Shown here: positions 3,377-52,451 of the stretch, piece by piece
How positions within the stretch are numbered: position 1 is the first letter of the stretch
Layout of the letters: every line of letters begins with the position of its first letter
Assembly: GCA_030062745.1 (NCBI GenBank)
Contig: CP099851.1
Location: forward strand, 11,286,393-11,350,392
Direction: 5' to 3'
DNA from: Capitulum mitella
Lineage: Eukaryota; Arthropoda; Thecostraca; Pollicipedomorpha; Pollicipedidae
Length of the DNA stretch: 64,000 bases
Made by a program: the position numbers and the translations under genes
The notes under the pieces: model-generated
Seen by the model: only the letters and a program-made list of their open reading frames with translations
The model's database searches: none
Told to the model about the DNA's origin: nothing

Positions 3377-4595
3377 TTAACCGGCCTTCTCCTGGGGGGG
3401 GGGGCGGTTGACCGCCCCCCTGAGGTTTTTCTAGGACTGCGAAAGAACGAACAAACGCAGCGTCACAAAACTTCGTGTGCCTTTTGCTTGATTATCTTTG
3501 CACCTTATGCAAAAGTTTTCAACTCAGGTTAAGTCAGGTGTCTGACCTAGGTCAAGTCAAACGGACCTAGGTCCAAAAACGTTTAGCGCCTTCTAACTTT
3601 TTCGGAAAACAAGATATCACAATAATACTTTCAGCGATTAGAGATCTTGATAGATGCAACAGATCTGCTACCTCAGATTTTTGGAATTTTTGGGGGTCAT
3701 TGACCTAAGGTCAAGCCCATTTTTAAGACATATCGTCGTTTTTTTCGGAAACTGGCGAAATTTTTCACAACATTTTTAGTATGGAGTGATGCAGACATCT
3801 AGTTACAATCAATGGACAAAGTATCAGTGACTTCCAGCCATTGACCTGAGGTCAGGTTACGAATAACTGTTGTGAGCCAAAATGTACCAACGTCAAAATT
3901 AGTGATGAATTACTCAGAATGGGTAGTAAATGACAAAGCTGGCTTGCACAGACGCAAATAATACCAAGAACCTCAAAAAGTTTTTAAAATTGTATATTTT
4001 GGAAATAAACAGTCTCTCGCGAATAAAGCTCCGCCAGTTGTGTAGATTGGTAATTAATGAATCTTTCCAAAATTTGAACATAAGAAACCATCACAAGGAC
4101 CACTAAGATCAATAAAATTTACATGGATGGGCTTCTGTCCCGAAAATAAAGGAACGCTAACATTAGTTCCCGTTAATTTCATACTGCGCACGGCTCCGGC
4201 GCTCGCCGACAGCCGGCGTGAAAATTGCCGTGTCTTTAACTTAACGTTTCGGTATATATATTGAACAAATCTGAGAAATAAGACGTGTATCGGCATTTGC
4301 GGACCTTTACTTGTGCGTTGGTGCCTTTACCTTTGCGTTGTTAGTCACAGCCCTTGAGATTCAGGCCGTTTCTCAGTCTCATGCAGTCGGCTACAAGAAA
4401 ACATATATAGGGTGTATGTAAATGGCTTACATGTGGTCGAAAACTAAAAATGAGACCAGTTTTTGTCTCCATTTGTCACGAGTTTTCCAACGGTGCGCTT
4501 ATTTTTATCGTGCGACCAACTGTTCGTGAGTAAATGGGAACGGTCAACCCCCAGTCGGGGGTGATCGTCACCGACCCACGGTCGGGCGCGGTTGA
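3377..4595 (+). mobile_element. TTAA-1 non-autonomous transposon, copy 1
   Basis: A TTAA at 3377-3380 is followed by CCGG and a G-run palindrome whose core is GGCGGTTGACCGCC. The body aligns along its whole length with 5401-6624. The right end has CGGTCAACC then CCCAGTCGGGG and closes at GCGCGG followed by TTGA (4592-4595), a one-base change from TTAA. TTAA targets with CCC...GGG ends are typical of piggyBac-like elements (established knowledge). No transposase is encoded, so the element would depend on one supplied elsewhere (inference). The frame that stays open for 88 codons in the other copies is broken here by an indel near 4275. The CGGT/ACCG palindrome variant marks a subfamily distinct from copies 2 and 3. 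Confidence 0.8.
3543..3854. promoter_or_regulatory. Everted AGGTCA half-sites in TTAA-1 copy 1
   Basis: TGACCTAGGTCA lies at 3543-3554, TGACCTAAGGTCA at 3701-3713 and TGACCTGAGGTCA at 3842-3854. AGGTCA is the nuclear-receptor half-site, and these are everted pairs with spacings of 0, 1 and 1. The two spaced-by-one sites recur at equivalent places in copies 2 and 3, and the zero-spaced site recurs in copy 2. Whether any receptor binds is unknown; they may simply be part of the transposon. Confidence 0.4.
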
Positions 4596-5396: not shown

Positions 5397-5416
5397 TTAA
5401 CCCGTCCCCGACTGGG

Positions 5417-5440
5417 GGGGGGGCAGTTGACTGCCCCCCC
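5417..5440. repeat. Left subterminal G/C palindrome of TTAA-1 copy 2
   Basis: GGGGGGGCAGT (5417-5427) pairs with ACTGCCCCCCC (5430-5440) across a TG centre, giving an 11-bp perfect stem. The same structure is found at both ends of copies 2 and 3. The G-run could also adopt other G-rich structures. A role as a transposase or host-factor site is inference. Confidence 0.85.
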
Positions 5441-5562
5441 TGAGGTTTTTCTGGCATTGCGAGAGAACCAACAAACACAGAGCCACGAAACTTTGTGTAC
5501 CTTTTGCTCCATTAATTTTACGTCTCGTGTCAAAATTTTGACATCAGGTCAGGTCAGGTGCC

Positions 5563-5874
5563 TGACCTAGGTCAGGTCAAACAGACCTATGTCGAAAAAA
5601 GTTTAGCGCCCTCTAACTTTTTCGCAAAACAAGATATCTCAATAATACTTTCAGGGAATAGTGACCGTGATAGATGCAACAAATCTGCTATCTCAGATTT
5701 TTCGGAGTTTTCCGGGTCATTGACCTAAGGTCAAGCCCATTTTTAAGACATATCGCCGTTTTTTTCGGAAATTAACGGAATATTCCATAACATTTTTAGT
5801 GTGGAGTGAAGCAGACATCTAGTTACCGTCATTGGGCAAAGTATCAGTGACCTCCAGCCATTGACCTGAGGTCA
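5563..5874. promoter_or_regulatory. Everted AGGTCA half-sites in TTAA-1 copy 2
   Basis: TGACCTAGGTCA lies at 5563-5574, TGACCTAAGGTCA at 5721-5733 and TGACCTGAGGTCA at 5862-5874. Just upstream, 5546-5562 carries tandem AGGTC units, so the half-site is repeated in direct and everted arrangement. Positions match copy 1. Function is not shown. Confidence 0.4.
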
Positions 5875-6555
5875 GGTCACGAATAAGTGTAGTGGACCAA
5901 AATGTACCACCGTCAAAATCGACGATGAACTACTCAGAATGGGTAGAAAATGGCAGATCTAACTTGCACAGACGTAGTTAATACCAGGAACCTGAAAAAG
6001 TTTGAAAAAGTATCATATTTTGGAAATAAATAGGCTCTCGCGAATAAAGCTCCGCCAACTTTGTAGATTGGCAACTAATCAATTTTCCCAAAATTTAAGC
6101 ATGAAAAACCATCACAAGAACCACAAAGATCAATAAAATTGACATAGATTGTCCTTTTTCGCGAAAATAAAGGAACGCTAAAATTAGTTCCGGTCAATTT
6201 GGTACCGCATACGGCAGCGGCGCACACGGCCGGCCGACCGGGAGAATTACGGTGTCTTTAACTCAACGTTTCGGCGTATATATTGAACAAATCTGAGGAA
6301 ATTAGACGTGTATCGGCATCCGCGGACATTTACTTGTGCGCTGGTGGCTTTACCTATGCGTTATTAGTCACAGCCCTTGAGATTCAGGCCATTTCTCGGT
6401 CTCATGCAGTCGGCTATGAGAAAACATATATAGGGCGTAAGTTGGCTTACATATTATCTAAAACTAAAAATGAGACCAGTTTCGAGCTCTTCTCGTCACA
6501 GGCTTTCGAACGGTATGCTTATTTTTATCGTGCGACCAACCGTTCGTGAGTTAGA

Positions 6556-6579
6556 GGGGGGGCAGTCAACTGCCCCCCC
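6556..6579. repeat. Right subterminal G/C palindrome of TTAA-1 copy 2
   Basis: GGGGGGGCAGT (6556-6566) pairs with ACTGCCCCCCC (6569-6579) around a CA centre. It is the mirror of the left palindrome and lies about 45 bp from the right terminus. Confidence 0.85.
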
Positions 6580-6628
6580 CCCCCAGTCGCCGATGTTCGG
6601 GACGGACCGACGGTCGTGCGCGGGTTAA

Positions 6629-8159
6629 TAGCATCCAAAGGCAATAGTCAACCAAAGATGTGTGTTTCCCCTACAATCTTTTTTTAGCGCTGAAAGGATT
6701 AACTGCTTCAGAGCCTGCAAGTAATAATATATCATTTTACACAATCAGTTTTGAATTCAGTTTGAAGGTTTGTGGAAGTTTCCCAAAAACCATCAGGCTC
6801 CTTCCTTAAATCTTCTTAGATTTCAAACACTTTTGTGACTACCTGATACCGTACTTTTTTGCGATTTTCTAATGATTAATGCCAGTTTCACCCGGGGAAG
6901 ACCTAGGAAATATTAGGGCATGATTGTAGTCAACTGAAATGCAGTCTCTGATCATACACTGAACAAACTTTTTTCACACCAGGTTCCAGAAATACTGATT
7001 TTAATCATGCTTCGAACATCCGAGATGGTCGTATCTTGTAGGATTTATCTTCGTGACGGAGGTTTATCAGGAGTGTAATAAGCTCACCCTGAAGTTATAC
7101 TCGCCAGCTTTAGATTCCCATTTGCAGCACACCTGATCGGTAGAACGCAACACCTATACGTGTTAAATACATTCTTTCGATGTCCTGCTATGACGTCATG
7201 TTGATTTGATCAGAACACCCGTGTTATCTGTCCCGGTCAAGGCTTGAAACGTAGTTCATTTCTGCGCCCATTTCATGAGAAGTGTAGTTCAACACTTGGC
7301 CATACATTTCGTAACGGTGTACGGTCAGCTGGGTGAGCACGGCGTTGCGCCATGTTGCTTTGTGTGGTGATGGAGAAAGCGGCGTGCGAGGCAGCAGCAT
7401 TCAGCCATCACGCGGGTTTTATTTTCATTTTTGATGTTTATGTCCTACCAGGAGATGCAAAATTGTTCATTAACATAAAACAGTAGTAAATGAAGCTGAT
7501 TATGCCCTGGATATAAATGGGGCATCCCATGCATCCCATGCATCCCATGCATAGCCTCCTGACATTAGTGACTCGTGACATGACCACTTTTGTTTGAAAA
7601 TCAAAATATTTCGGATGCTTCACGGTAACTGCTGCTCAAAATAGCTCCAGAACAGTGTTTAATGGAACACGATATAGTCTCAAAACAGTACTCAAATGCG
7701 ATATTTAAGTTTGAAATGTATTTAACTGGTAGCATCCAGATCAGTTGCCTTAGGAAATTCGTTGGATTTGCGGCTTCAATTTGCTTACCGAATTGCACAT
7801 GCTTAATAAAATTTTCGGGCAAATTGGACGAAGTCCATTTCCTAAAGAGGGTGTTTTCCTCAGGATACAGATATATTTTTTGGGTCTGAGGTTGTTTGTT
7901 TTGTCTGTCACCAGTCCGTTTCGCACCACACACTGCGATATGGAAGAAAGAAGATAAATGCAGTGCAGAACATGCGGCTGCTTATGAAAAGTGCCATGTC
8001 CGACACCCAAAGACTTTCATTTTCATGCAAAAAGCATTCTAATAATACGCTGCTCAGCCCTGTTGTCCTCCTCTGAGACGCCATAATTGACTATCCTCTT
8101 GAAAGGAGAGATGGGTCACCATCTCATCGCTGTCCACAGAATGATATCAGTATGTCATA
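6629..8159. other. No recognisable gene; 9-bp triplication at 7522-7550
   Basis: No coding family is recognised over 1.5 kb. A small array of three GCATCCCAT units sits near 7522-7550, and a consensus CRE (TGACGTCA) at 7191-7198. Open frames here overlap on both strands and none looks protein-like. Confidence 0.45.
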
Positions 8160-8830: not shown

Positions 8831-9202
8831 ACTGCAAACGCTAATGCATCACCCCTATATAATCTATCAACAAGAGCACGACCGGTCAGCTAGTCGATGT
8901 CAGTCAACTAATGTGACGCCTTCTGACGTCACTAGCAATCATCCAATAATAATCGGCAATCCGCAGAGTCGTCGCCTCGTACATGTAAAATTCGTTGCCC
9001 CCTCCAAACTGTTTGCAATAACGCAAACGGCTTGGCTCTGGCTGAGAGAAATCCGGACATGACTGCATGCAAATTTAGCACATCAGAACGGTATCTCCAT
9101 GGCTCGATTTCTTCACAGCGGAAAAAAGCATATTTGGAATGATCTTGTTTTACATTTCAAAGTGCGTAGTCAATGCCAGGAGCGAAATATGAAAGCAGTG
9201 TA
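8831..9202. other. Short unique spacer with one CRE
   Basis: No gene is seen. A consensus cAMP-response element TGACGTCA lies at 8924-8931, with a related TGACG half-site shortly before it. There is no other promoter evidence. Confidence 0.35.
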
Positions 9203-10435
9203 TTGACCCGCGCACGACCGTCGGTCCGTCTCGAGCATCGGCGACTGGGGGGGGGGGGCAGTTGACTGCCCCCCTCTAACTCACGAACGGTTGGTCGCAC
9301 AATAAAAATGAGCATACCGTTGGAAAGCTTGTGACGAGTAGAGCTCGAAACTGGTCTCATTTTTAGTTTTAGATAATATGTAAGCCAATTTACGATCTAT
9401 ATAAGTTTTCTCATATCCGACTGCATGAGACCGAGAAATGGCCTGAATCTCAAGGGCTGTGACTAATAACGCATAGGTAAAGGCACCAGTGCACAAATAA
9501 AGGTCCGCGGATGCCGATACACGTCTAATTTCCCCAGATTTATTCAATACATACGCCGAAACGTTGAGTTAAAGACACGATAATTCTCCCGCCAGCTGTC
9601 AGTGTGCGCCGCTGCCGTATGCGGTACCAAATTGGCGGGAACTAATTTTGGCGTTCCTGTATTTTTGCGAAAAAAAGACGATCTATGTCAGTTTTATTGA
9701 TCTTTGTGGTTCTTGTGATGGTTTCTCATGCTTAAATTTTGGAAAAATTCATTAGTTACCAGTCTACAAAGTTGGCGGGGCTTTATTCCCGAGAGCCTGT
9801 TTATTTCCAAAATATTCTACTTTTTCAAAGTTTTTGAGGTTCCTGGTATTAATTACGTCGGCGCAAGCTAGTTCTGCCATTTTCTACCCATTCTGAGTAA
9901 TTCATCGTCGATTTTGAAGGTGGTACATTTAGGCTCACTACAGTTATTCGTGACCTGACCTCAGGTCAATAGCTGGAAGTCATTGATACTTTGCCCAATG
10001 ACGGCAACTAGATGTCTGCTTCACTCCACACTAAAAATGTTATGGAATATTCCGTCAATTTCCGAAAAACGACGACATGTCTTAAAAATGGGCTTGACCT
10101 TAGGTCAATGACCCGGAAAAATTCCGAAAAATCTAAGATAGCAGATTTATTGCATCTATCACGATCACGAATCCCTGAAAGTATTATTGAGATATCTTGT
10201 CTTCCGAAAAAGTTAGAGGGCGCTAAACTTTTTTTGACATAGGTCTGTTTGACCTGACCCAGGTCAGGCACTTGACCTGACCTGAGGTCAAAATTTTGAT
10301 ACGAGATGTAAAATTGATGAAGCAAAAGGTGCACCAAGTTTCGTGAACCTGTGTTTGTTGGTTCTCTCGCAATCCCAGAAAAACCTCAGGGGAGGCAGTC
10401 AACTGCCCCCCCCCCCTCAGTCGGGGGCGGGTTAA
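9203..10435 (-). mobile_element. TTAA-1 non-autonomous transposon, copy 3 (inverted)
   Basis: A reverse-oriented copy of the 5397-6628 element. On the plus strand it runs from TTGA (9203-9206, a decayed TTAA) and CCCGCGCACGACC at 9207 to GGGGGCGGG ending at 10431, followed by TTAA at 10432-10435. The 1225-bp length matches copy 2 within a base or two. Palindromes lie at 9253-9274 and around 10394-10409. Everted AGGTCA pairs recur at 9956-9968 and 10095-10107. The minus-strand frame at 9547-9281 stays open for 88 codons as in copy 2, again with a TTG and no ATG. No transposase is present. Confidence 0.87.
9253..9274. repeat. Subterminal palindrome of TTAA-1 copy 3
   Basis: GGGGGGCAGT (9253-9262) and ACTGCCCCCC (9265-9274) form a perfect 10-bp stem around TG. 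The partner at the other end has its G-run interrupted by an A at 10393 and keeps a GGCAGT/ACTGCC core. Confidence 0.8.
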
Positions 10436-15220: not shown

Positions 15221-16655
15221 CAACATATAAGCGTGCCAAACAGCATTTACAGATACGTTTTCTAGTTCCTAGTTTGAGGAGCAGCGCCACAGGCTGCGAT
15301 CGTCATGCGTCCCTCAAGTACTTTTTAGTACGAATAGACTTCAGTGGTACTGGAATTAATTAATGGACCTCTGGCGTTAATTTAGCCCATACCCGATTTT
15401 GGGAAAGGACGTTGGCCTCATTTCATGTATGCAATGTATTTTGTTTCTCAGGCTGTCCTCCTTTTTTATTCTACATTGAAATTCAGCCTCTGAAAAACAC
15501 CGCCAAAGGGAACAAGCAAAATTGGCGTCATTTGTAGCTTGTGAGACGGGTGAAGGAGCCTGAATGAAAAAACTGTTCTCTTTGCTTCCAAGCAGTTTTG
15601 TTTAGAAACGCTGGTCGATTGCATATCTGAATGCGGTTGCATGAGTTCAGAACTTGGCTGCCCCTGAAGCGACTGTTCGACGGTTATCAACACAAACAAG
15701 CATGTAAATACCCCGTATACGAGTGGAGGTTTTTGCGCAAAATTTTGAGGCGGAACATGCAGTGGTAGCTGCAGGAACTGCAGACGTTTGGCAGCTGCTC
15801 GGTGGCCTTGCTTTCTGTTAGCGCTGCAATATGCCGGACGGCGAACTACCAACAATAGTTTACAAAAGCTGGTCAACGCACAGATGGCGATGTGGTAAAA
15901 ATGCTCCTCGATTAAATTGAAAGCAAAACGGTGGAGACGCAAAAACTTAGCTGGTAATGAAGTGCTTATGGTTGAACCTGTGTGATAGAACTAGTCTATA
16001 TATCTCAGTACCAGTTGTATGAATCGCTAATTCTCTGGCATGTCACAAAACCAACTGGAAAAATTATTTTTGATGATATCAATGACGTCATTGATGTGAC
16101 CAGCTCATCTCAGTCGTTCTGTTCTAGTCATTGAAACAGGGAGGAGAGTACTTATCCAGTGCCTCGGACGTATGCAGTAAGGCAAACGGCGCAATATGAA
16201 ACAAATGAAACGGTTTCAACTTTCCCCATTTGTTGTGCTTTATGTGTGACAAATGTCCATTTCATTCGTGTTGAACAAAATTGCAGTTTGTCGCTGAAAA
16301 TAAGCGTCGGAGGAAATTTGTTGCTGCATGGTAACCTGACACCGTCCATGATCCTGAAATTGTCATATTCCCTGTCATATGGCGTGCACCCCTCCGGTGT
16401 CTTCTCTGTATGCTCGGGATGAGTGACGGCACCGCGTGGTGCGCGCCAGAGCCGGCCGCTGAGCCGTGCACGGCCGGCCGACCGGCCGCTGCCACACGCC
16501 GAGACCGTTAGACCGGCCGGCCGGCAAGCAGATGGACCGTCGGCTGGGAAAATACACGGTCACTTTCACTTATTGTAATGAGGGGCGTGCTGCTGCGTCT
16601 GCCTGACCTTGGTGAGGTCGGCGCCGGAACGGCAGCGTCCGGAGGCACTTTCTCT
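15221..16655. other. No convincing gene; GC-rich right end
   Basis: A minus-strand frame at 15942-15466 is open for 158 codons. It contains no motif I recognise and I cannot support it as a gene. The segment 16420-16640 is GC- and CpG-rich with several GGCCGG strings. Confidence 0.35.
16078..16095. promoter_or_regulatory. Perfect 18-bp CRE-centred palindrome
   Basis: ATCAATGACGTCATTGAT is fully self-complementary and centred on the consensus CRE TGACGTCA (16083-16090). CREB/ATF bZIP dimers bind this core (established knowledge). No promoter or exon can be recognised beside it, so use in vivo is uncertain. Confidence 0.5.
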
Positions 16656-16657
16656 CC

Positions 16658-16716
<59 letters not shown>
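16648..16716 (+). repeat. (CT)n microsatellite
   Basis: An almost pure CT run of about 60 bp. It lies at the outer end of the left arm of the large inverted duplication, in the position where the right arm has a GAGAGA/GGAAAG tract. Confidence 0.95.
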
Positions 16717-16720
<4 letters not shown>

Positions 16721-18012
16721 TGTTTCTCTTCCTTTACCCAACTTTTTCTATGCAGTCAGTTCAATGTTAATTTTGACAATGGTGCATTTACAAATGGTAC
16801 CAACATGGAACTCGAAAGAGTCCCCGAAATTGTATTTTTTGAACTACGTACGTTTAAACTTAGCAAGACCTATTTGCAGCTGTCGATTCCAGTCTTCGGT
16901 ATCACAAAATATCTAAAGATGTATTAAATGCTCATATCAGAGTATACATGCTGTTGTAAAAAAGACCGTCATGTATTGAGAGGGCGCCAACGAACGTTTT
17001 GAACATTTAAATGAGAACTGCCACCAAAAAGTTTGCTTGTAGTGAGGCCATAAACTTTTGCTTAGAGTAATGGCAAAGACAGCCTCACTGAAAATCGAAA
17101 AAAAATATTGTTCTAGTTACTCGTTGACAATCGACGTTCATAACTTATTTGGAGCTCTTAAAAGTAGACGTGGATGAAATATCCTTACCGTTGGTTTCTA
17201 GCAATAAGTTGTCACACAAACATTGTCCCCACCGCTGACGCTTGTCTTCCGGGCGTTGAGGAGCTTCTTTGCAAGTATGTACGTTTTTACGGGATGCCTC
17301 TAGGTTCGCTGATTTCTCTCCAGAGAACGTCAAATTGCCAGTCGTTTGTGTTCGGGTCATTAAAGTTTGTCGCAACTTTGGGATATGTAACCTTCCCTTG
17401 TTGTACTGCTTAGCGTTTGGTCTCGTATTTAACTGCTCCAAACTGTTACATTACACCATGCTCACTCGAAACGTAAGCTTCAAGTTTACGTACAGTCGGC
17501 ATGGGGCCAAAAATCGTGTCATCGTTAGCATAAGCTGCGCCATTAGACACAACAGAAGCCACATTCTGTGTTGCTTGCACGCAGCCAATGAACGTACGGC
17601 AAAGAAACAAAACAAGACCAGTGATCATCTGTGCACAAAAGGCGTTGGGAATGACATTGTGGTTATGATAAAAAAGCAGTCAAGTGCACACTGTGATTCC
17701 TTAAAAAGTCGCGGCCCGAAAGCTCAGTGGAATTTGTCGAATTTGTCCAGCGACCAGAAAGGAACGTCAGAAATTGCTTGTTGAGTAATACTGGATTATG
17801 ACACCAGCAGCATGAGCAGTTGGGATCGGCCAGCAGTTCGGATTTACGCGGACGTCAAGGTTTTAAGGGAGACGGTTTAGAGCAGCATATGAGGCTAAAA
17901 TGCTGCACGCTGACCCATCATGATCATACCGTACATACATCTGAGATGAAACCATTGATATTGACAATGAAACAGTTGTTTCGTGTTTTAAGTACGTATT
18001 ACGTACATCTAC
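16700..18012 (+). repeat. Left arm of a 2.96-kb inverted duplication
   Basis: This 1.3-kb arm is the diverged reverse complement of 18341-19662. Matching blocks, outermost to innermost, include GGTACCA.TTTG..AAT near 16790, TTTGGTGGCAG (as CTGCCACCAAA) near 17020, CTTTGCAAGTATGTACGTTT near 17267, AAACAAAACAAGAC near 17607, GCTGCACGCTGACCCATCATGA near 17905 and TACGTATTACGTAC near 17995. Identity is moderate with indels. No open frame is conserved between arms. It may be one of two opposed copies of a transposon, or a single element with very long inverted ends. Confidence 0.85.
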
Positions 18013-18340
18013 ACAGTTGTCAACATTTAGTAGAGTATAAGGTTATCCTGGGATCACTTTTTAAGGTAGGTTATTGGAAGAAGGAAGTCCCATTTGACAC
18101 CAAGTGCTGCTGCGTTCGTCCATTCTAGCAGTATTAAAGTGCTTCTGTCAACAACTGGGTCACATTTGGGAGCTGAGAGTGGTGGGACCGTTTGGACCAC
18201 TGAAATCTGACCCTTGGTTCTTCGGATGGGCAAGGCACAACCGATATGTCACCGTAACTGATGCCAGTCGAAATACTCAAGTCAGAACGGGTTGAACCGT
18301 TTTGTAGCTCAGGATGGGAGGTCATGTCGAGAGCAGCAGA
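18013..18340. other. Spacer of the inverted duplication
   Basis: About 330 bp between the arms. I see no pairing between its two halves and no coding signal, so the arms stop at TCTAC on the left and GTAGA on the right. Confidence 0.6.
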
Positions 18341-19662
18341 GAGTAGACGTGCGTAATACGCACGCTATACACGGAAGAGGTGTCTCATTATGAGCATAAA
18401 TGGTTCGATCTGATATGTATGCACGGTTTGGTCATGATGGGTAAGGGTGCTGCATTTTAGCCTCATCTGCTCCTCTAATCCGTCTCCCCGTTCGGCGAAA
18501 AGTTGGACTGTTGGCTGATGCCAACTGCTCATGCTGCTGGTGTCATAATCCAATATTACTCAGCAAGTAATTTCAACCGTTCCTTTCTAATCGCTGGACA
18601 AACTCGACAAACTCCACTGAGTTCTTCGAGACGAGAGTTTTTAAGGAGTAAAAGTGAGCACCGGACAGCTTTGTACGATTACCATCATGTCTTTTTCAAG
18701 GTGTTATTTGAGCACATAATCACTCGTCTTGTTTTGTTTCTTCGCCAGTCTTCTCTCTGTTGTGTGCAGGCAGCACAGAATGGGGCTTCTGACGGTGTCT
18801 CACAGCGCAGTTTGTGTTAAAGATGACTGAATTACTGGTCCCATGCCGACTTGAAATGCACTTTAAACCTATGTATCTGGTCAGCAGGGTGTCACCTAAT
18901 AAACTGGAACAGCCAGATACCCTACCAAAGGATAAGTAATACCAGAAGGCAAGGTAAGAAATTCCAGAATTGGGATAAACTTCGGTGACCCGAAAATTAA
19001 TGACTGCCAATTCGACGTTCACTGGAGAAAAACCAGCGAGCCGAGAGGCTTACTGCAAAAACGTACATACTTGCAAAGAAGTTGTTCAACGTTCAAAAAC
19101 AAATATGAACGGTGGGGTAAATGTTTGCTTGACAGTGTAGTGTTCGAAACCAACGGAAAGTATATCTTCTCCAGATCTACTGTTGAAAGTTGGGAAATTA
19201 TCAAAATAATTTGTTAAAGAGGTTCTAGGACATGATATTCTTCGCTTTTTAGCAAGACCGCTCTTTGCGATTACTCCAAGTAAACGTTTGTCACCGTATC
19301 ACTTAAAGCAGTCTTTGGTGGCAGCTTTCACTTAAATTTCAGTACTTCGTTTGGTGCGTACTCAGTACATGGTAGCCGCTTTTACAGCGACTGCGCTGCA
19401 TATACAATCCGATCTGAGCCTTTAAAATTATAGTCTTTTGACAAAAATTACCGTATTTCGCCATACCATAGTATTGCAACTGTCAACCGCAAATGACTCT
19501 TGTCGCGTTTAAACGTCCATGACTCAAAAAGGTGCAATTTCAAGGGCGATTTCGAGTGACATATTGGTACCATTTGCAAATTCACCGTTAAAAAGATTAA
19601 TATTGGTCCGTGACTACGTAGAAAAAGTTAGGTAGAGGGAGACAAAAAGTTAGAGAGAGACG
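18341..19662 (-). repeat. Right arm of a 2.96-kb inverted duplication
   Basis: The reverse-complement partner of 16700-18012; the match continues outward through CTACGTAGAAAAAGTTAGG near 19615 into a GAGAGA tract. The matching purine-rich outer ends suggest the microsatellite belongs to the duplicated unit. Confidence 0.85.
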
Positions 19663-19850
19663 GAAAGGAAGAAAAGAAAGAAAAAAGAAGCAAATAAGGA
19701 AGGAAAGAGGGAAAGGAAGAAAGATGGGAAGAAAGAAAGAACGACAGGCAAGCAGGCAAGCAGGCAGGCAAGCAGGCATGCAGGCATGCATGTAGGCAGG
19801 AAGGCAGGCAGGCAGGCAGATAGACGGGCAAACAAACAGACAGGGAGAAC
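19663..19850 (+). repeat. Purine-rich tract and (GGCA)n microsatellite
   Basis: GGAAAGAAA-type purine sequence runs to about 19745, followed by imperfect GGCA/GCAA tetranucleotide repeats to about 19830. Low complexity explains the long open frames rich in CLPAC or SFFLS. Confidence 0.9.
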
Positions 19851-23924: not shown

Positions 23925-25035
23925 TACGCAGGGGAGGGGCTTCAGAAGACCCCTTTCCGTTTTTTTCGCCATTTCCAGGGTTTCTGAAGTAACGTGAAGA
24001 AATCTGTCATCGTCCTATCCATTCGCCTTACGTACGATGTCAAATTTTAGTAATTTTATTTCGCCCATCTCTCAAAAGTCTGCGCTTTTGAGAAACACCT
24101 GAGGCCATTTTCGGCACTGTCGAAGGTAAAAGAAAAATGGCTGTAAAAACGGATTTTTAAGATCCAACTTAAAGGTTTACATGAGTGTCTAGGTAAAAGC
24201 TACACGATCATACACAAGTATTTTTGTTGGCCTTAGTTCACCTTACATGGTCATATCAGTGTCACAATTTGAAATTTGGTTGTATGTTAATATTCTTGAC
24301 GCTATCATTTACCCCAAAAATCCGGAATATATACAGTGTTCTTTAACTGCGTTTCAAGTTGCAGGTCAATGTCACAGGTCAAGGAGCTATGACGTAAAAT
24401 GTCTGCGCGCGAACCCTATATTACGACGGTCATAAACAGGAAATTCGGAAATGAAGTCCCATTAAATGGCTGAAATCGTTATCAACACTATGGAATGAAC
24501 CCAAGATCTTTTTACGTGACTTTAAAGTCATCTCAGATTACCTGAGGTCAAAGGTCGTCAGGTGACCTGATGAAGATGTGATCTTGACAGTTCCCCTTTT
24601 CATGTCTCTGGCGCTCCTATGCCAACATTAAACGGACATTGTAAAACGATTTGTATTTCTGAAGTAAAGAATGACTAGTAATAACTTTAAGATAGTTTTA
24701 AATTTTGTGTTCAGTAAGTTGTTAAAAATGTCGTGGCATTTTCCAAGCCCTGTAAACGCCTATGGATGTTCTCCAAGTTCTTAACGTATGGGATCAAGGG
24801 AAGTCCCATCGATTAGCTCTCGATTCATGGCAACTGCATCAAAATCGGCCGATAAATATCGGAGTTATAGCAAGTAAAAATACATCTCTTCCTGACCACT
24901 GCAAAATTTCAGAACTTCTTTTGGGCAAAAAAAATGGGTTTTACGCCATGGCAAATCGCTTGACTTTTGTTCCTATTAGGTCGAGGGGGGAAGTTCTCAA
25001 AATCTCAGGGAGGCCGAATAAGGCCTCCCTGAGAC
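23925..25035 (+). mobile_element. TTAA-2 element, diverged near-full-length copy
   Basis: It begins near GGGGAGGGGCTTC...CCCCTTTCC and follows the 28172-29379 element in order: CACCTGAGGCCATTTT, GAGCTATGACGTAAAATGTC, GAGGTCAAAGGTC, CCCCTTTTCATGTCTCTGGC, CTCTCGATTCATGGCAACT, then the right subterminal palindrome 25003-25034. The terminal CCC/TTAA at each end is not preserved. The sequence is non-coding; the plus-strand frame at 24762-25124 has no recognisable motif. Confidence 0.7.
25003..25034. repeat. Right subterminal palindrome of the TTAA-2 copy
   Basis: TCTCAGGGAGGCC (25003-25015) pairs perfectly with GGCCTCCCTGAGA (25022-25034) around the loop GAATAA. The reverse-complement loop TTATTC recurs in the palindromes near 25212 and 51980, and a GAATCC version near 29322. 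Confidence 0.8.
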
Positions 25036-25039
25036 TGAG

Positions 25040-25165
25040 CTCCCGGAAAGGGGCGAAGAAAGGGAAAGGGGTGACTTGTTATAACTCCCATGTTTATCGA
25101 CCGATTTCCATGGAACTGTCATGATCGAGAGCTAATTAGACTTCCTGGGCCCATGCAGGAATGCA
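25040..25165 (-). mobile_element. TTAA-2 internal fragment, inverted
   Basis: About 120 bp starting CCGGAAAGGGGCGAAG that nearly duplicates 25366-25490 (same direction). Both are reverse-complement to the 29090-29160 part of the intact element. It ends abruptly at CCATGCAG. It looks like a piece copied from, or left behind by, the adjacent inverted element. Confidence 0.65.
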
Positions 25166-25193
25166 TCCTGAAGTTATGGGTAAGGAAATGGAG

Positions 25194-26341
25194 TTAACCC
25201 TATTCCCGTACCATTCCCGGATGGGGGGCTTATTCGCCCCCTCCCCTGACATCTCGGGAACAATCCGTCAGACCTGATCGCAACAAACGGCGATCGAGTC
25301 GACACTACCTAAACTACATTTTTTATATGAAACTGAAAATATTACATTGATGGGCACAAGGGTAAAAAAACCGGAAAGGAGCGAAGAAAGGGAAAGGGGT
25401 AACTTGTTATAACTCCCATGTTTATCGACCGATTTTGGTGGAATTTTCATGATCGAGAGCTAATTAGACTTTTTCTGGGTCCATGCGTTTAGAATGTTGA
25501 GGAAATTTATAGGCGTTGACAGAGCTTGGAAAATGGGACAAATATCTTTCTTGAAAACCTAATTAACACAAACGTTTCAAATATTTTATGACTTTTACCG
25601 ATTATTCCTTACCTGAAAAATGTCAATCGTTTCACGCTGCTCGTACAGTGTTGGCATAAGTAGCGACGAGCGTGAAAAGGATGAAATTGTCACCATAGCT
25701 TCTTCATCAGGTCAACTTACGGCCTTTCATCTCAGATGACCTAAGATGACTTCAAAGTCACGTAAGATGACCTCGGGCTGATTTCGTAGTGTTCGAAAAC
25801 TTTCCAGTCATGTCAGTTGGCTTTTGTAGGTCATAACTTCTTGACCCGACCTGATATCAGTATCAAATTGTAAGCACACGTAGAGAACACTACGCTGAGC
25901 GACGTGTATTCCTGATTACTTATGAAAAAACCGTCAAAAATACCTCTGTCAAACCAAATTTTAGATTTTGACCTTAACCTTGCGGATTAGCATCCGGCCA
26001 ACAAAAATATTTTGGGGTATTTTCCCAGTTATTTATGTATATCATGTAAAAGTTTAAGTTTTGTCTTAAAAACTGTACTTTTGGCAATTCTTTTCCCTTT
26101 ACCTTTACGCCAAAATGGCCTGAGGTGCCTCCCAGTGGCGCGGTCTTCTCCGTCCCTGAGCAAAATAAAACCATGAAAATTTGATATAATACGTAGGAAG
26201 AATAAATAGGAAAACTGGCTATATCTCGTCAAGCTGCTTTAAAAAAAACCGGAAACGGAGAACTAAAAAAAAAGCGGGAAGGTTTTCTAAAGCCTGTCCA
26301 TACGATGTGACTCTTCGTATGATGTTCGGGAATAGGGTCAA
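25194..26341 (-). mobile_element. TTAA-2 non-autonomous transposon, inverted copy
   Basis: TTAA at 25194-25197 is followed by CCCTATTCCCG; the other end reads CGGGAATAGGG (26327-26337) then TCAA (26338-26341), a one-base change from TTAA. The terminal 11-bp repeats are exact. Between them the sequence is the reverse complement of the 28172 family in order, including GGCCTGAGGTGCCTCCC near 26119 and CGTCAAGCTGC near 26228. A subterminal palindrome GGGGGGC-TTATTC-GCCCCC lies near 25212. Length is about 1.14 kb and no transposase is encoded. TTAA targets and CCC ends point to piggyBac-type mobilisation (inference). Confidence 0.85.
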
Positions 26342-27514
26342 ACCGAAAGAAACGAATTAAGCGGCAGGCTCGTCCCGTGAAACCTATTACATTTTTCTTT
26401 TTTTTTGGGGGGGGGGCTAGTGACGTGTCAACCATTGGGCACCGAATCATGAATTATTTACTACAAGATAGCTCAATTCTTTAAACTGTATGCATTTGCA
26501 GTCCTTATGCGCTCGCCTTGGGTATTGCTTTTTGGCATCATAAATATACCGGGAAGATGTTTTCGCACTTACGCGTTTTTACGGATATTTTCGGACTGCC
26601 CAGTAATGACAGCGAATAATAGCATGGTGTGCTTGACCTTAAACTTTGTCATTTCCCGGGTGCAACAGATAAGAAGATCATTAGATATCGGTTTGTTTTA
26701 CGAAATGCATCGAAGGAAAATAAGTGTGCCGTACAGTATTTTATCGTATCCTTTCAAATGCCAAGAGAAACACAGCAAGCCACGCACTCCATGCATCCCA
26801 GAAAGCGTCTTTCTGGATGTGTTGATCCCCTAGATTGCGTGATTTTAAGGCTGTATTCGTTTTATTGCATCGTTTTATGAACGCTTTCAAATTTTAAGGA
26901 CGTATCGGTTTGTCTGATGATGAGGCTTCCGCAGTGCTGTTGGTATTCTTTTGTTATGTTTTCAAAACCTGAAGAAACTTCGTATGAACAACGTCCATAT
27001 TTAAGATGAAATTCCCATTCAAAACTCTGATGTATTTCATTTTCATTCATGCACGCAGTCTCACAATAGGGGCTGAGTATGCAGTGGAACGTCACGACAC
27101 GACACGAGATGCCGAACTGACAAGAACATATGTTTCCGCCTTATGTTCACAGACTTTCTCCCCAAGAGCCTACCGTTTCAGATGCTCCATCCGTTAATGC
27201 CTAAACGTTTGCGCGACAGTCTTCGTGCTGGAGTGAAGGCGCATGAAGGAGCCACTGTACACAGTGCCTCGTATGGGCTACAGAGAGAGAAGTAAGAAGG
27301 GAAGCTCCGCTGGGGATGTTAGAAGCCCCGCCAACCTACTGTCTCAGCATTTCAACGTCAGATCATGGACTCCAAAGATCATTATGTCACAAAGTTATGC
27401 GTATGTGTTATTTTGCCCTTCAGTGTTGACCTTCCCTCATATTTGGCTATTGTCATGGCCGGAAGAAATAAATAACGGTTGTGGGTCGACTGTGTTCGAC
27501 GAGAACCAGGGCTT
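26342..27514. other. No recognisable gene
   Basis: There is a T-run/G-run at 26396-26415. Otherwise unrecognised mixed sequence between two TTAA-2 clusters. Confidence 0.4.
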
Positions 27515-28167
27515 TTAACCCTATTCCCGGCAGGGGGAGTGCTGAATCCGCCCCCGCTCGGGTTTTTTTGCTTGCCAATTCCAGGCTTTTTAATGCAGCT
27601 TCACGAAACTTAGTGACTTTTCCTAGCTATTCTTTCTACGCACCGTGACAAATTTTCAAAATTCTATTTTGCTCAGGGGCGGAGCCAGGCAACGTTTTTG
27701 GGAGGCACCTCAGGCCATTTTTGGCCATGTTCAGGGTAAAAGGAAAATGTCTGCCAAATACAGAGTTTTTAAGATAGAACTTAAAACGTTATATGGATGT
27801 ATAGCCTAATAGTTAGGCAATCTGCAGATATAATTTTATTCATCTGAGATTACTTTACAAGGTCAGGCCAAGATCAAAAGTCAAAATTTGTCTTTTTGCA
27901 ATAATTTCGGCACCGTTTATTCAAATTTCAAACCCAGAATATAGATGACATAGAACAGTGCACTCTACTTCTGTATCAAGTTTCAGCTTGATATCTGGTC
28001 GGGTCACGGAGCTATGACCTAAAATGTCAGTGCGCCTACCCCATATCGCAATAGTCATAAAATGAATTTTTTAAAATAGAGTGAATTCAAATGATTGAAA
28101 ACGTTTACAGATAATATTAAATGCACACGAGATTATTCCAAGTGACCCCAAGGTCACTGGAGGTCAT
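27515..28167 (+). mobile_element. TTAA-2 element, 5' half, cut by the next copy
   Basis: TTAA 27515-27518 then CCCTATTCCCGGCAGGGGG begins a well-preserved copy closely similar to 28172 onward. It runs for about 650 bp to GGTCACTGGAGGTCATTTAA, where the next element's TTAACCCTATTCCC begins. In the next element the same place reads TTATTTAAGGTC, so the junction lies at a TTAA of the element's own body. The 3' half of this copy is not found beyond the second element. Confidence 0.82.
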
Positions 28168-29383
28168 TTAACCCTATTCCCGGCAGGGGGGGCTGAATCC
28201 GCACCGATCGGGTTTTTTGCTTGCCAATTCCAAGCTTTTTAACGCAGCTTCACGAAACTTGGTAACTTTTCCTAGCTATTCTTTCCACGCGCTGTGACAA
28301 AATTTCACAATTCTACATTGCTCAGGGGCGGAGCCAGGTAACGTTTTTGGGAGGCACCTCATGCCATTTTTGGCCATGTTGAGGGTAAAAGGAAAATGTC
28401 TGCCAAAAGCAGAGTTTTGAAGATAAAACTTAAAGCGTTATATGGATGAATAGCTAAATAGTTTGGCAATGTGCAGATGCAATTTTGTTTATCTGAGGCT
28501 ATTTTAAAAGGTGAGGTCAAGATCAAAAGTCAAAATTTGTTTGTTTTTGCAACAATTTCGACGCCGTTTTTTAAAATGCCAAACCCGGAATATATATGAC
28601 GTAGAACGGTGCCTTCTACTTGTCTACCAAATTTCAGCTTGATATCTGGTCGGGTCACGGAGCTATGATCTAAAATGTCAGTGCGCGTACTCTACTCGCA
28701 ATAGCCATAAAATGAAATTTTTGAAATAGAGTGAATTCAAATGATTGAAAACATTTACAGATAATATTGAATGCACACGAGATCATTCCAAGTGGCCCCA
28801 AGGTCACTGGGGGTTATTTAAGGTCAAAGGTCACAAGTTGATCTGAGAAACGTGTGACCTTGATAGTTTCCCCTTTTTCATGTCCCTGGCACCGCCTATG
28901 CTAACATTATACAACCATTGTGATGCGATTTGTACTTCTTTAGTATAACATGACTAGCAGAAACCAAAAAAGGGTGTTTGCCTCTTTTGTTCGTTCAGTT
29001 GTTAGAAAACTAATCCTCCTATTTTTGAAACCCTGTGAACGCCCATGAATTTTCTCAAAATTTTAGATTTGCGGTCCCATGGTAAAAGCCCTATCCATAA
29101 TCTCTCGATTCATGCCAGTTTCATCGAAATCGGTCGAAAAACAACGGAGTTATAAGAAGTCCAAAAGTACCCCCTATTTTGACATTTTTGCCCCCTGTAT
29201 CCACAAATTTCGACATTTTGAAAAAATTTTTTTTTATAAAAATGTAGTTCACGTCACGGCAAATCGATTGCCGTTTGTTGTGATGAAATTGGACAAGGAG
29301 TTCTCCAGATCTCAGAGGGGGCCGAATCCACCCCCCCTGCCGGGAATCGACCATACCGTCTAGCCCTCCGGGAATATGGTTAA
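28168..29383 (+). mobile_element. TTAA-2 non-autonomous transposon, best preserved copy
   Basis: TTAA 28168-28171 and TTAA 29380-29383 bound a 1208-bp element starting CCCTATTCCCGG and ending CCGGGAATATGG, a 12-bp terminal inverted repeat with one mismatch. Subterminal G-run/C-run blocks occur at 28184-28205 and 29316-29345. The body carries AGGTCA-type half-sites near 28805-28830. It encodes no recognisable protein. It appears inserted into the TTAA of the truncated copy to its left. Confidence 0.88.
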
Positions 29384-31645: not shown

Positions 31646-32642
31646 AGTTTATGATTTATTACACTTTGCGATGCGATAAGCATATCTGGGAAGTATGGCC
31701 TTTTCTGAAAAAGGTGATCAGCGTCATTTTTCGGACTGATGAAATGATGTTCTGGAAAGTTGACCACGGTTCTCTTTAAAGGTAAGCTTCCACCTTCGTG
31801 GCGTTTTCAGAAAAAAAACTGTCATTGAGTAATGAGCTATCCGCCTAGTACTGAGCCGAACACTGAGTTTAAGTCTTCAGTGGAGCTTCCGTTAGTGACT
31901 GAAATGCATTATAAATACTCATTCGAGCTATAGTTGGCACACAGAAGCATGCTGCTATCAACCGACTGCGAGTACTTGAGTAAGTCTACAAACTAGTCTC
32001 GAATTTTCGGCCGAATGTTGCTTTGCCGAATTTGCCGAATTTGGCTTTGCCAAATGTTCGATTCTTAGTTTCAAGTTTCGAACAATCGGCGAATATTTGG
32101 TCAGCCATTTATACGCCCGAAGTTTTGCCGAATATTCGAATGGCAACCGAGCATTCGGATATTTTTTTTGCATTTTGTCGCGGAATCTGGAGATATACCT
32201 GACTCAAATCGTGCAAAAAGCTAATTGGGGTACTGATTTGCGCTTTGTGGCGTCTCTATATCAGTATGGTTGAGAAGAAAATGCGGCCGTGCCACCGAGA
32301 TTGTTCCGCCCTTCCCCACTGTGGCACTAATCTCTACGTCGAGCTCCGTAGGGAAATGTGTAGCACCAAAGTAATCTGCCGCTTCATCCGTGTTTTGCCA
32401 CGGCTGGCAGAAAGGTGGGGTAGGAATAGGGCGGCGAATAAAGGTGGGTATTGCCGGAATTATCAGCCTGTTCTCACTTTAGCATGTTTACTTTTTCTGA
32501 TGTTTACTGGGACGAATGTAGGGAAAATGCCGGCCTCTCGTTGCCTGAATTGGCATGGACGTGCAATGATCCTTGGCATCCATGTTGATTTCCCATCCTT
32601 ATAATATTGCCAATATAAAACAAGTGGCGGAAATGTCCTGTG
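31646..32642. other. No gene; CGAAT-rich segment inside
   Basis: The segment 31996-32164 is rich in TTGCCGAAT and CGAATATTCG strings in both orientations, as at 37416-37565 and 38367-38457. Nothing else is recognised. Confidence 0.45.
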
Positions 32643-33359
32643 TAGAGCTGAGAATTTGGATCCGTTTTTGGATTCCAGTATTATGATGGGTACATTAGAA
32701 TATTCAGATCAAACGCTCAAAACTTTTGAATTTTATGTCACTTCATCTCAAAATGTGCGATCAGAACAATGAGTCAAAATTAAATTCATTCAGAATAGCA
32801 TGAACAAATTATTGGACTTGAAAGTTTCAGCCGGGACCGAGCAACGGGCGGACGGCGGCAGGCCGCTTCCGAGGGAGCGGGGCTGGACAAGGGTTGGGGA
32901 TCATGACGTCCTCGGCAGGAAACTTTCTGCTTGGCAGTCCAACTCATGTGCAACCAGAGCGCAAACCACCAAGCCCTAACGATGGCAGTGCTTTGGATTA
33001 CGGAATGAGCAGGGTGAGAGTAAGGAATCGAATGAGGTCATTCGAATATGGGAGACTAGTAGTCTTGAAATCGGTGGAATACCTCCCACTTGCTCTACGC
33101 CACTGTATCTATACATCGAATTACGGAACAATCGGACAAACGGTAGGCACGAAATCAATCAATATTCGTCAGATAACCTCAGCGCATATTTCTCAAGCGC
33201 CACATGGCAATACTGAATTCAAAATGCATGAAAACGTTTCAATCTGCACAGAGATGTTTTTTGCCACGCTTATTGTCAAAATTTGGAGACATATTGTACT
33301 ATATTTTTGCGAACATCATGGTAGGAAAACATGGCTGGAACTGAAAATATTCCATGTTA

Positions 33360-36768: not shown

Positions 36769-37415
36769 TAACCGAGCTGTTCTCCAACTTGATGTTGCTC
36801 TCCCCAAAGTAAAGCTCTGTGTGAGCTCGTAGTTCCCTCTAGCGTCGAGAAGGGAGTACTGCACGCGTTTGGAGAAGTATCTTTCCTCCCCAACTCCAAC
36901 GTATTTATCTGCTGTCACTGTGCATTTCCGCTACATGCATTTATGCCAAATGTGTTAAGCATGAGGAATCATCATGGTTGTAAAAGCTCATTGCACGCAC
37001 AAGCTAAAATTGTACATTGAGACCCTGGCCATTCCCCTAAATTCGTCTCGATAAACAGCAACAGAAGTAAGACGCTCAGAAGAAAACAGGCTGACAATTC
37101 CGGCAACATCCAGCTTTATTTACCGAATAATTTCGACCCAGTGTTCCTGCCATTTGTGGCCAGACAGGCAACAAACCTCGGGTTACTCATGGGGCTAAGT
37201 ATTGTCCCATGAAACTTGATGCACAGATCAGTGTCACAGTAGGAAGGGACACGACATGTCTCGTTGGCACTGCTGCGTATTGCTGTCATCAGGACTGATG
37301 TACAGAAGTCACAAAATGCCACCCAATGCTCCAATTAGTTTTCTGCATGATCTAGACCAAGTGTATTTTCAGCTTCATAGACGAAATTCAAAAGAATGCT
37401 GAAATGCTCAGTTGG
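36769..37415. other. No recognisable gene
   Basis: Unrecognised mixed sequence to the right of the candidate TTAA element. Confidence 0.4.
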
Positions 37416-37565
37416 CATTCGAACGTTCGGCGAATATTCGGATTTAAAAGCGGCCAACCGAATACATGTTGGACATTCGAGTCTTGAAATCAAGATTCGA
37501 ACATTCGCCCAAGCCGAATATTCTGTCGAATATTGGAATCATATGAATCCGAATTCTCAGCTCTA
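37416..37565 (-). repeat. CGAATATTCG-rich transposon end
   Basis: Dense ATTCGAA, CGAATATTCGG and AAGCCGAATATTC strings ending in CTCAGCTCTA. It resembles 38367-38457 and parts of 31996-32164. Confidence 0.55.
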
Positions 37566-38366
37566 CTCCTGTCACACCGAAATATTGCATTCGAGGCTGG
37601 AGGAAGATACCAACCCAATCGCCATTCTGGGCAGCACCTCGGGCAATAATTGCGTAATTAGTTCAATGCTGAATGTTATTGCATCCATTTCGGGCCAATA
37701 TTTCTTTTAAAAACTTTATTCCATCGTTTGCCTACGGTGCCATCAAATCAGAGCTAGACCTAAAAGGAGATGGTAGCCCAGACCCTGATCCCAGTCCCTG
37801 AACCCTGATCCCAACCCATTGCGCAATGTCGCATAAACGGCATGAAGTTGTGGCGAAAGTTCAACGCATCGATGTGAGGGACACGGTTACACCACTGCCG
37901 TGTTTATCTCTTAAAGCGAGTAATTAATTCACACATAACTTGTTACCTTGCAATACCGAAGGCTGAGCGTAATCTGGTATTTCTCCTCATTTTGACCAAG
38001 GATGCAACAGCGCACATTAAATGGAGAGAACTATATCACCTTCAAGTCGACTCGTTTGCTTTATTCGATTGATCTGATTTGACTTCATTTTCTCTTTCTA
38101 ATCATTCTGAAATCCGAAGCTCTGTCGTCGTATGGGCTTGGCGGCCTGTCCTCGGCTCGGACAGCACAGAAGCTTCGCTGCCAATCAGAGCGCTTTCTGC
38201 CGCTGACGTCATGTCCCGCCCCTTCCTCGGTGGGGCCCGACCCCCTTCCGCCCTGTGCTCGTCGCTGACCGAAGCTAAGAAGTTGTGCAACTTGTTCATG
38301 CCATTGTGAATCAGTCCGACTTTCGCAAAATGTTCCGATGGTACCCTTTTTGATGGAATGACACCA
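37566..38366. other. No gene; promoter-like motif cluster inside
   Basis: Contains the CCAAT/CRE/GC-box cluster annotated separately. No exon is recognised. Confidence 0.35.
38181..38222. promoter_or_regulatory. CCAAT + CRE + GC-box cluster
   Basis: CCAATCAG (38181-38188), TGACGTCA (38204-38211) and CCCGCCCC (38215-38222) sit within 42 bp in moderately GC-rich sequence. These are recognised by NF-Y, CREB/ATF and Sp-type factors (established knowledge), and this spacing is common in TATA-less promoters. No transcript can be identified, and a transposon end lies 150-240 bp to the right. Confidence 0.4.
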
Positions 38367-38457
38367 GTTCCGAAAGATTCGAATATTCGACCCAACTATT
38401 CGAATGCACCCGTCCGAACATTCGAATCTAAAAAACCTATCCGAATACTCAGCTCTA
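38367..38457 (-). repeat. CGAATATTCG-rich transposon end
   Basis: ATTCGAATATTCGACCC and ATTCGAATGCACCCG strings finishing CCGAATACTCAGCTCTA. The last 19 bases match the ends at 32643 and 37565 with one to three differences, so it is a third terminus of the same family. Confidence 0.55.
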
Positions 38458-38639
38458 CTGCCAACACACTGAACCATCCGTGACGCTCAGTTTCCCGGTA
38501 CTGCTTCCATGTTAAACTGCATCTTCTTTGCACCTGGATTTGTCTGGTACATCGCGGGCAATACCTGCTTTATCTGTACATGGCTGTCGCCTGTGCCTGG
38601 ACATATGTTCCGGGGTAGGGGTCTGGCCCGCCATTGATT

Positions 38640-46636: not shown

Positions 46637-47607
46637 TAGCTGGTTCTGTTCGGTTTGTGTTCGCCGCCAGCGCTGGTTTTGTTCCGGTTTGTGTTCGCTG
46701 GCGGGCTGGTTCTGTTCAGTTTGTCCGTTGGCGGGGCTGGTCATGTTCAGTTTGTGTCCGCTGGTGGGGATGGTTCTGTTCAGTTTGTGTCCGCTGGTGG
46801 GGCTGATTCCCTTCAGTTTGTGTCCGCTGGTGGGGCTGGTTCTGTTTAGTTTGTGTTTGCTGGGGGGGCTGGTTCTGTTTAGTTTTTGTCCGCTGGTGGG
46901 GCTGGTTTTGTTCAGTTTGTGTCTACTGGCGGGGTTGGCTCTGTCCAGCTGTGTCCGCTGGTGCGGCTGGTTCTGTTCAGTGTGTGTCTGCTGGTAGGGC
47001 TGGTTCTGTTCAGCCTGTGTCCGCTGGCGGGGCTAGTGCTGTTCAGTATCTGTCAGCTGGCGGGGCTGGTTCTGTTCAGTTTGTGTCTACTGGCGCGGTT
47101 GGTTCTGTTCAGTTGTGTCCGCTGGTGGCGCTGGTTTTGTTCAGATTGTGTCCGCTGATGGGGCTGGTTCTGTTCAGTTTGTGTTCGCTGGTGGGGCTGG
47201 TTCTGTTCAGTTTGTAACCACTGGTGGGGCTGGTTCTGTTCAGTTTGTGTCAACTGGGGGGGGGGCTGGTTTTGTCCACTTTGTGTCTTCTGGCGGGGTT
47301 GGTTCTGTTCAGTTGTGTTCGCTGGTGGGGCTGGTTTTGTTTAGATTGTGGCCGCTGGTGGGGCGGGTTCTGTTCAGTTTGTGTTCGCTGGTGTGGTTGG
47401 TTCTGTTCAGTTTGTGTCCGCTGGTGGGGCGGGTTCTGTCCAGCTGTGTCCGCTGGTGGGGCTGATTCTGTTCAGTTTGTGTCCGCTGGTGGGGCCGGTT
47501 CTGTTTAGTTTGTGTTCGCTGGTGTGGTTGGTTTTGTTCAGTTTGTGTCCGCTGGTGGGGCGGCTGGTTCTGTTCAGTTTGTGTCCGCTGGCGGGGCTGG
47601 TTCTGCT
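46637..47607 (+). repeat. 33-bp minisatellite, about 29 units
   Basis: The unit joins GCTGGTGGGGCTGGTTCTG to TTCAGTTTGTGTCC. Because 33 is divisible by three and the unit lacks stops in five of six frames, overlapping frames encode 11-residue repeats such as SAGGAGSVQFV, LVGLVLFSLCP, WWGWFCSVCVR and, on the minus strand, GHKLNRTSPTS. One-base changes in unit length (CAGTTGTGTCC against CAGTTTGTGTCC, and the long G-run near 47258) shift frame repeatedly. That argues against a translated repeat protein. Confidence 0.93.
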
Positions 47608-51928: not shown

Positions 51929-52451
51929 TTAACCTTGTTCTCGTACCCATACCGCTAGGGTGTATTCCCCTATGGAGGGGAGCTTATTCGCCCCTACCTC
52001 CTCGGATCTCGAGAATTATCCGTCCGATTACATCGCAGCAGCTGATATGATATCAACAAAAGTACTTTTTTATGTTTGCTCAGCTGTTTCCCTATATCTT
52101 CATTTGAAGTTTTAAGTTCTATCTCAACAAAAACACTTTTTTTGTTTGCTCAGCTACCTGCCTATGCTCTCATATGAGGCTTTAAGTTCTATCTTAAAAT
52201 CTCTATTTTTGGCAGTCGTTTTTTCTTTCACCTTGAACAGTTCCAAAAATGGCCTAAGGTGCCTCCGAAAAACTTGGGTTGGCTCCATCCCTAATACAAA
52301 TATGAAAAAAGCAAAATACAAATATGAGAATCTAAAATTATATGCAAAAAAAATAATAGGAAAAGTCAATAACTTTCATGAAGCTGCTTCAAGCGTCCTG
52401 GAAATGACGAGCAAAAAATCCCAAGGCTCCCCCATACAGGAGTAGTGTTAA
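51929..52451 (-). mobile_element. TTAA-2 element, short inverted copy
   Basis: TTAA at 51929-51932 and 52448-52451 bound about 515 bp. Ends read CCTTGTTCTCGTACCC and, inverted, CACTACTCCTGTATGGGGG, both eroded forms of CCCTATTCCCG. A GGGGAGC-TTATTC-GCCCCT block lies near 51976. The interior has the family's 5' part in reverse (CTAAGGTGCCTCC near 52254, CATGAAGCTGCTTC near 52378) but lacks much of the 3' part. A 60-70-bp segment (GTTTGCTCAGCT...TTTTAAGTTCTATCT) is duplicated at 52073-52195. Confidence 0.72.

Follow-up and report, generated by a model that had tools for sequence, protein, structure and literature searches.

Two sequences of about 1.3 kb that face each other as reverse complements across a short spacer, as found in the genome of Capitulum mitella, raise the question of whether such a locus is a mobile element, a source of hairpin RNA, or the trace of a single rearrangement. 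Here, we address this question within a window of 64,000 nucleotides (the whole stretch of DNA that was analyzed, C13:11286393-11350392), which was compared with itself and searched against the genome that it belongs to (477,042,490 bases, 16 contigs). The features on which the argument turns are collected in table 1.

Table 1. Features of the inverted duplication (positions in the window)
Feature	Position	Strand	Description
(TC)n tract	16651..16715	+	Outer end of left arm
Left arm	16709..18012	+	From blastn and alignment; genome matches are itself and the right arm only
32-nt identical run	17792..17823	+	Partner at 18521-18552; inside the best block, 17723-17852 / 18492-18621 (85%)
15-nt palindrome, left arm	17992..18006	.	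7-bp stem, 1-nt center; 6 nt inside the inner arm end
Spacer	18013..18342	.	330 bp; present once in the genome; inverted self-matches no better than in shuffles
15-nt palindrome, right arm	18349..18363	.	Same palindrome with a compensated pair (G-C for the A-T of the left arm)
Right arm	18343..19660	-	Reverse complement of left arm, 71.7%; genome matches are itself and the left arm only
Purine-rich tract	19620..19742	+	Outer end of right arm; inverted counterpart of the (TC)n tract

Extent and Divergence of the Arms

A self-comparison by blastn of the window against itself returned one continuous inverted match between 16709-18012 and 19660-18343 (71.7% identity over 1339 columns, E=0), which bears out the inverted duplication that the initial annotation had proposed, with diverged arms of about 1.3 kb that are reverse complements over their full length. 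The end of the left arm at 18012 also stands, but the right arm starts at 18343 rather than two bases earlier, so that the spacer runs from 18013 to 18342. Matching blocks are present along the arms, but not every 50-100 bp as had been described, since gapless blocks reach 297 nt: among the 25 pairs shown of the 31 returned by the repeat search, many of which are microsatellite matches, the six longest arm blocks span 79-297 nt with 72-85% complementarity. The outer ends do lie in purine/pyrimidine microsatellites, with (TC)n spanning 16651-16715 on the left and purine-rich repeats spanning 19663-19741 on the right, and no similarity was found past the arm ends. The local alignment score of the arms is 775 in inverted orientation versus 26 in direct orientation, at most 31 for shuffled sequence (100 shuffles) and at most 252 for random arms of the same size and spacing placed in the window (258 of 300 draws kept, those near the repeat being dropped). 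The inverted score lies far above the direct, shuffled, and random-place scores, and the repeat is therefore real.

In the MAFFT core of the arms, 927 of 1259 gap-free columns are identical (73.6%), and the differences amount to 183 transitions and 149 transversions (K2P 0.33), with 17 gap runs. Gap openings per mismatch amount to 0.065, inside the range of 0.031-0.144 spanned by 18 other repeat pairs of the window, all of at least 150 columns and outside the tandem region at 39-48 kb, which dismisses the idea of unusually few indels and indicates that the arms drift like neighboring repeat pairs. Collapsed haplotypes or a read artifact seem unlikely as a source of the arms, for which an identity of 72% would appear too low.

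A Single Locus in the Genome

Queried against the genome, the left arm (E<=0.001) matched two places, itself and the right arm at 72%, and the right arm (E<=10) again matched itself and the left arm only, so that at these thresholds no third arm-like locus was found in 477 Mb; the spacer (E<=10) had itself as its sole match. The one-arm search proposed by the initial annotation thus returned no single arms elsewhere. With <=3 mismatches allowed, a 31-mer that the two arms share unchanged is present at exactly 2 genome places, namely these arms (0 for a reversed-pattern control). The same 31-mer had 0 exact occurrences in prokaryote and virus contig collections, which says little given their content. 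As the genome search skips very common words, some repeats could be missed, and arm copies well below 70% identity could escape it, although the partner at 72% was still detected. As a positive control, a 1.2-kb dispersed element of the window yielded 5839 first-look candidates in the genome, and the 40 of these that were scored proved full-length or nearly so, at 95-100% identity.

At a more local scale, we considered the 264 kb around the locus, where a profile of the 130-bp best block found only the two arms. This region holds 10 inverted pairs of at least 200 columns with arms at most 5 kb apart, five of which exceed 1 kb; among these five, the pair at 16709-19660 alone has no other match in the 264 kb. 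Locus-private pairs are not rare there, since in 4 of the 10 the arms match only each other, the others of this kind being shorter. Overall, the initial proposals of two opposed copies of one element and of a fold-back transposon are not supported, since single-locus arms and spacer next to an abundant control element speak against both a pair of insertions from a still surviving repeat family and a fold-back transposon present in many copies. Together with the 31-mer, these results lead us to reject a dispersed repeat family across the 477-Mb genome.

Absence of Coding and Structured RNA Content

No open frame runs through either arm: stops occur in all six frames of both, in agreement with the initial statement that no ORF is conserved. 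Frame pairs score alike, the mismatches between the arms show no consistent three-base period, and Pfam returned only matches at E 0.027-0.073 for the 66 of 66 ORFs of at least 28 aa in 16720-19640, the best of them below its curated cut-off. We therefore reject coding arms, the Pfam matches being at the level of noise. A structured RNA is likewise rejected, with no Rfam match at the gathering threshold in the whole window, none at E<=1 in 16600-19800, and no tRNA found. Among 115 ORFs scanned from the window, Pfam gave one weak match (7tm_6, E 0.0029). A scan for bacterial promoters and terminators gave 9 promoter-like sites where shuffled sequence gave 4.7 on average, a figure that is not meaningful in a eukaryote.

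A One-Off Inverted Duplication as the Probable Origin

The arms as observed are full-length reverse complements, confined to one locus, non-coding and 26-28% diverged, and the locus looks less like a mobile element or a functional RNA gene than like an unremarkable scar left by DNA repair. Its probable origin is an event of long ago, at this locus alone, in which fold-back or template-switch repair duplicated a unique non-coding stretch of 1.3 kb in inverted orientation; the copies have been drifting since. Such a one-off duplication explains the single-locus arms, the single-copy spacer, the lack of coding content, and the ordinary decay. Under the mechanism that we propose, a strand undergoing repair or replication would have folded back, or changed template, near the inner arm edge and copied about 1.3 kb in reverse, up to the polypyrimidine tract; the loop that escaped copying would have become the 330-bp spacer, and the arms would afterward have drifted as ordinary non-coding DNA. 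With regard to the persistence of such a scar, yeast inverted repeats are described in parts of PMC10164571 as losing their instability once homology drops to 75%, although, by the same account, divergence of up to 25% is tolerated in single-stranded DNA; by extension from yeast, an identity of about 72-74%, at or below the limit of instability in double-stranded DNA, may help the duplication to endure.

The fold-back event itself is proposed by analogy with human inverted duplications, which parts of PMC3907307 attribute to fold-back after a break and describe as having a single-copy spacer bordered by short inverted sequences. The likeness lies in inverted arms and a single-copy spacer, and perhaps in self-complementary sequence at the boundary: the genome search found the arm sequence to be otherwise single-copy and the spacer to be single-copy, as fold-back duplication implies, and the palindrome 6 nt inside the inner edge of both present-day arms (table 1) might correspond to a short inverted sequence that the unduplicated ancestor would have carried at the spacer boundary. 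However, the human spacers given there measure 766-70,466 bp, with far larger duplications that adjoin terminal deletions, whereas here the arms are of 1.3 kb and old (72%), the spacer is of 330 bp, and no terminal deletion is implied. Since the human spacers and duplications are larger, the match to the fold-back mechanism is loose and holds by analogy only.

Apart from the palindrome, no stem of at least 6 is free of mismatches at corresponding columns of both arms. A stem of at least 7 arose in 0.95% of 2000 column shuffles and a compensated stem in 2.25%, and the core 9-mer of the palindrome occurs once more in the window, at 1072, which matches chance expectation. Neither edge of the arms has the look of a mere random breakpoint, and a mobile element would be another way to account for this; the edges may be sequences at which a strand folded back or stalled, or the ends of a lost element. 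The palindrome and the 32-bp identical run are the unexplained residues of the duplication reading. The locus matters little by itself, but if it were dated with relatives it would offer a natural example of an inverted repeat outliving its unstable phase, and would show the course of decay of inverted repeats whose arms are not kept alike by gene conversion.

A Possible Last Copy of a Lost Mobile Element

The alternative that survives best is that the locus is the last copy of a fold-back element, with terminal inverted repeats of 1.3 kb, or that it consists of two opposed copies of a family whose other members are lost or too far decayed to be detected, a reading that we regard as tenable but rather unlikely. 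In favor of such an element, both arms have defined ends (a palindrome that includes one compensated pair on the inner side, a polypyrimidine tract on the outer), and their neighborhood is rich in repeats. Against it stand the lack of any further copy in 477 Mb, the absence of a transposase-like match, and outer ends (16600-16745 vs. 19610-19800) that share no direct repeat of at least 6 bp, a comparison weakened by old age and by the microsatellites at these ends. Fold-back transposons such as Tetris and Galileo, as portrayed in parts of PMC4079207, resemble the locus in their long inverted arms (the long terminal inverted repeats of that class being present here as the arms themselves), central spacer, and lack of an ORF; Tetris has a target-site duplication of about 8-10 bp. 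The present locus differs from them in that no second copy and no target-site duplication were found and that its arms are without internal tandem repeats. A second likeness is with HINE/DINE-1, non-autonomous Helentrons that, according to parts of PMC7492417 and PMC4067079, possess both a microsatellite and a 3' palindrome. A palindrome of this kind is found here near one end of each arm, along with a microsatellite-like tract and no ORF, but those elements are described as dispersed and as bearing subterminal inverted repeats of 11-15 bp, whereas this locus stands alone and its best subterminal inverted repeats, at 7-9 nt, are at chance level.

A Possible Hairpin RNA or Conserved Element

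Compared with a one-off duplication, it is improbable that the locus is a long hairpin RNA gene, whose transcript across both arms would form double-stranded RNA to be cut by Dicer into endogenous siRNAs. The predicted folds do pair most of the left arm with the right arm on either strand (988 of 1283 left-arm bases for a + strand transcript and 985 of 1303 bases between arms for a - strand transcript, as raw counts), in helices of up to 32 bp and 44 bp, respectively, when G-U pairs are counted. However, changes that preserve G-U pairing number 90 in one transcript direction versus 93 in the other, an absence of asymmetry in which nothing suggests pairing kept up by selection, and we reject such selection. 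Moreover, only two perfect runs between the arms reach 21 nt (32 and 25), and no other genome locus with extended similarity to an arm was found that could serve as a candidate target, though targets of short similarity could remain. The siRNA hairpin suggested by the initial annotation is thus possible in principle, yet is left without support by these three observations. Drosophila hpRNA loci with arms homologous to a transposon or a gene are known from parts of PMC10317233, and they share with the present locus an inverted repeat that would be transcribed into a hairpin; the strong ones are nevertheless depicted there as near-perfectly complementary and with identifiable targets, in contrast to Capitulum mitella arms at 72% and with no target locus found.

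We also consider it quite improbable that the arms are two inverted copies of a functional non-coding element, such as an enhancer or a short non-coding RNA, centered on the 130-bp best block. The 32-bp identical run of this block was reached by 0.3% of 5000 column shuffles (P 0.003), which fits such an element, but the variation in rate along the arms is mild (p 0.015 with 100-column bins, 0.17 with 50-column bins), Rfam returned nothing, and gene conversion acting locally between the arms would give the same pattern. As the run and the uneven divergence hint, constraint or conversion may affect some portion of the arms, and either a local constraint or a gene-conversion patch would produce both. 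A gene-conversion gradient toward the loop was set aside as weak, identity being 75.2% in the inner half of the arms and 72.0% in the outer half. Finally, we deem it highly improbable that this is an old hairpin-RNA locus whose arms have diverged to the point where only the inner, better conserved block with its perfect run and the edge palindrome would still act, the product being a small number of siRNAs or else a structured non-coding RNA of a type undescribed in this animal group.

Repeats and Genes in the Surroundings

The 1.2-kb dispersed element that served as a control lies at 3394-4591 (+), 5397-6630 (+), and 9201-10435 (-); a G-run hairpin opens the element, its ends are inverted over about 33 bp, and a related stretch (65%) is found at 2067-2571. 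Related repeats in both orientations occupy 24013-29347 and 52171-52425, the former cluster including a direct pair at 27508-28171 and 28161-28821 (88%), and a 33-bp minisatellite of about 29 copies (81%) extends over 46639-47605. A second diverged inverted pair opposes 32039-33069 to 36923-37519 and 38041-38458 at 65-67%, with no other match in the 264 kb, and to the right of the window an inverted pair at 104163-104444 and 105230-105516 (about 285 bp, 89.9%) is likewise private to this region. In the 100 kb on either side, Pfam matches among 113 ORFs scanned comprise two Chitin_bind_4, two reverse transcriptases, and one endonuclease family, a set indicative of an arthropod. About 56-58 kb to the left of the window, a 528-aa ORF (L009:2000-3583, +) carries a Chitin_bind_4 insect cuticle domain (E 8.9e-14).
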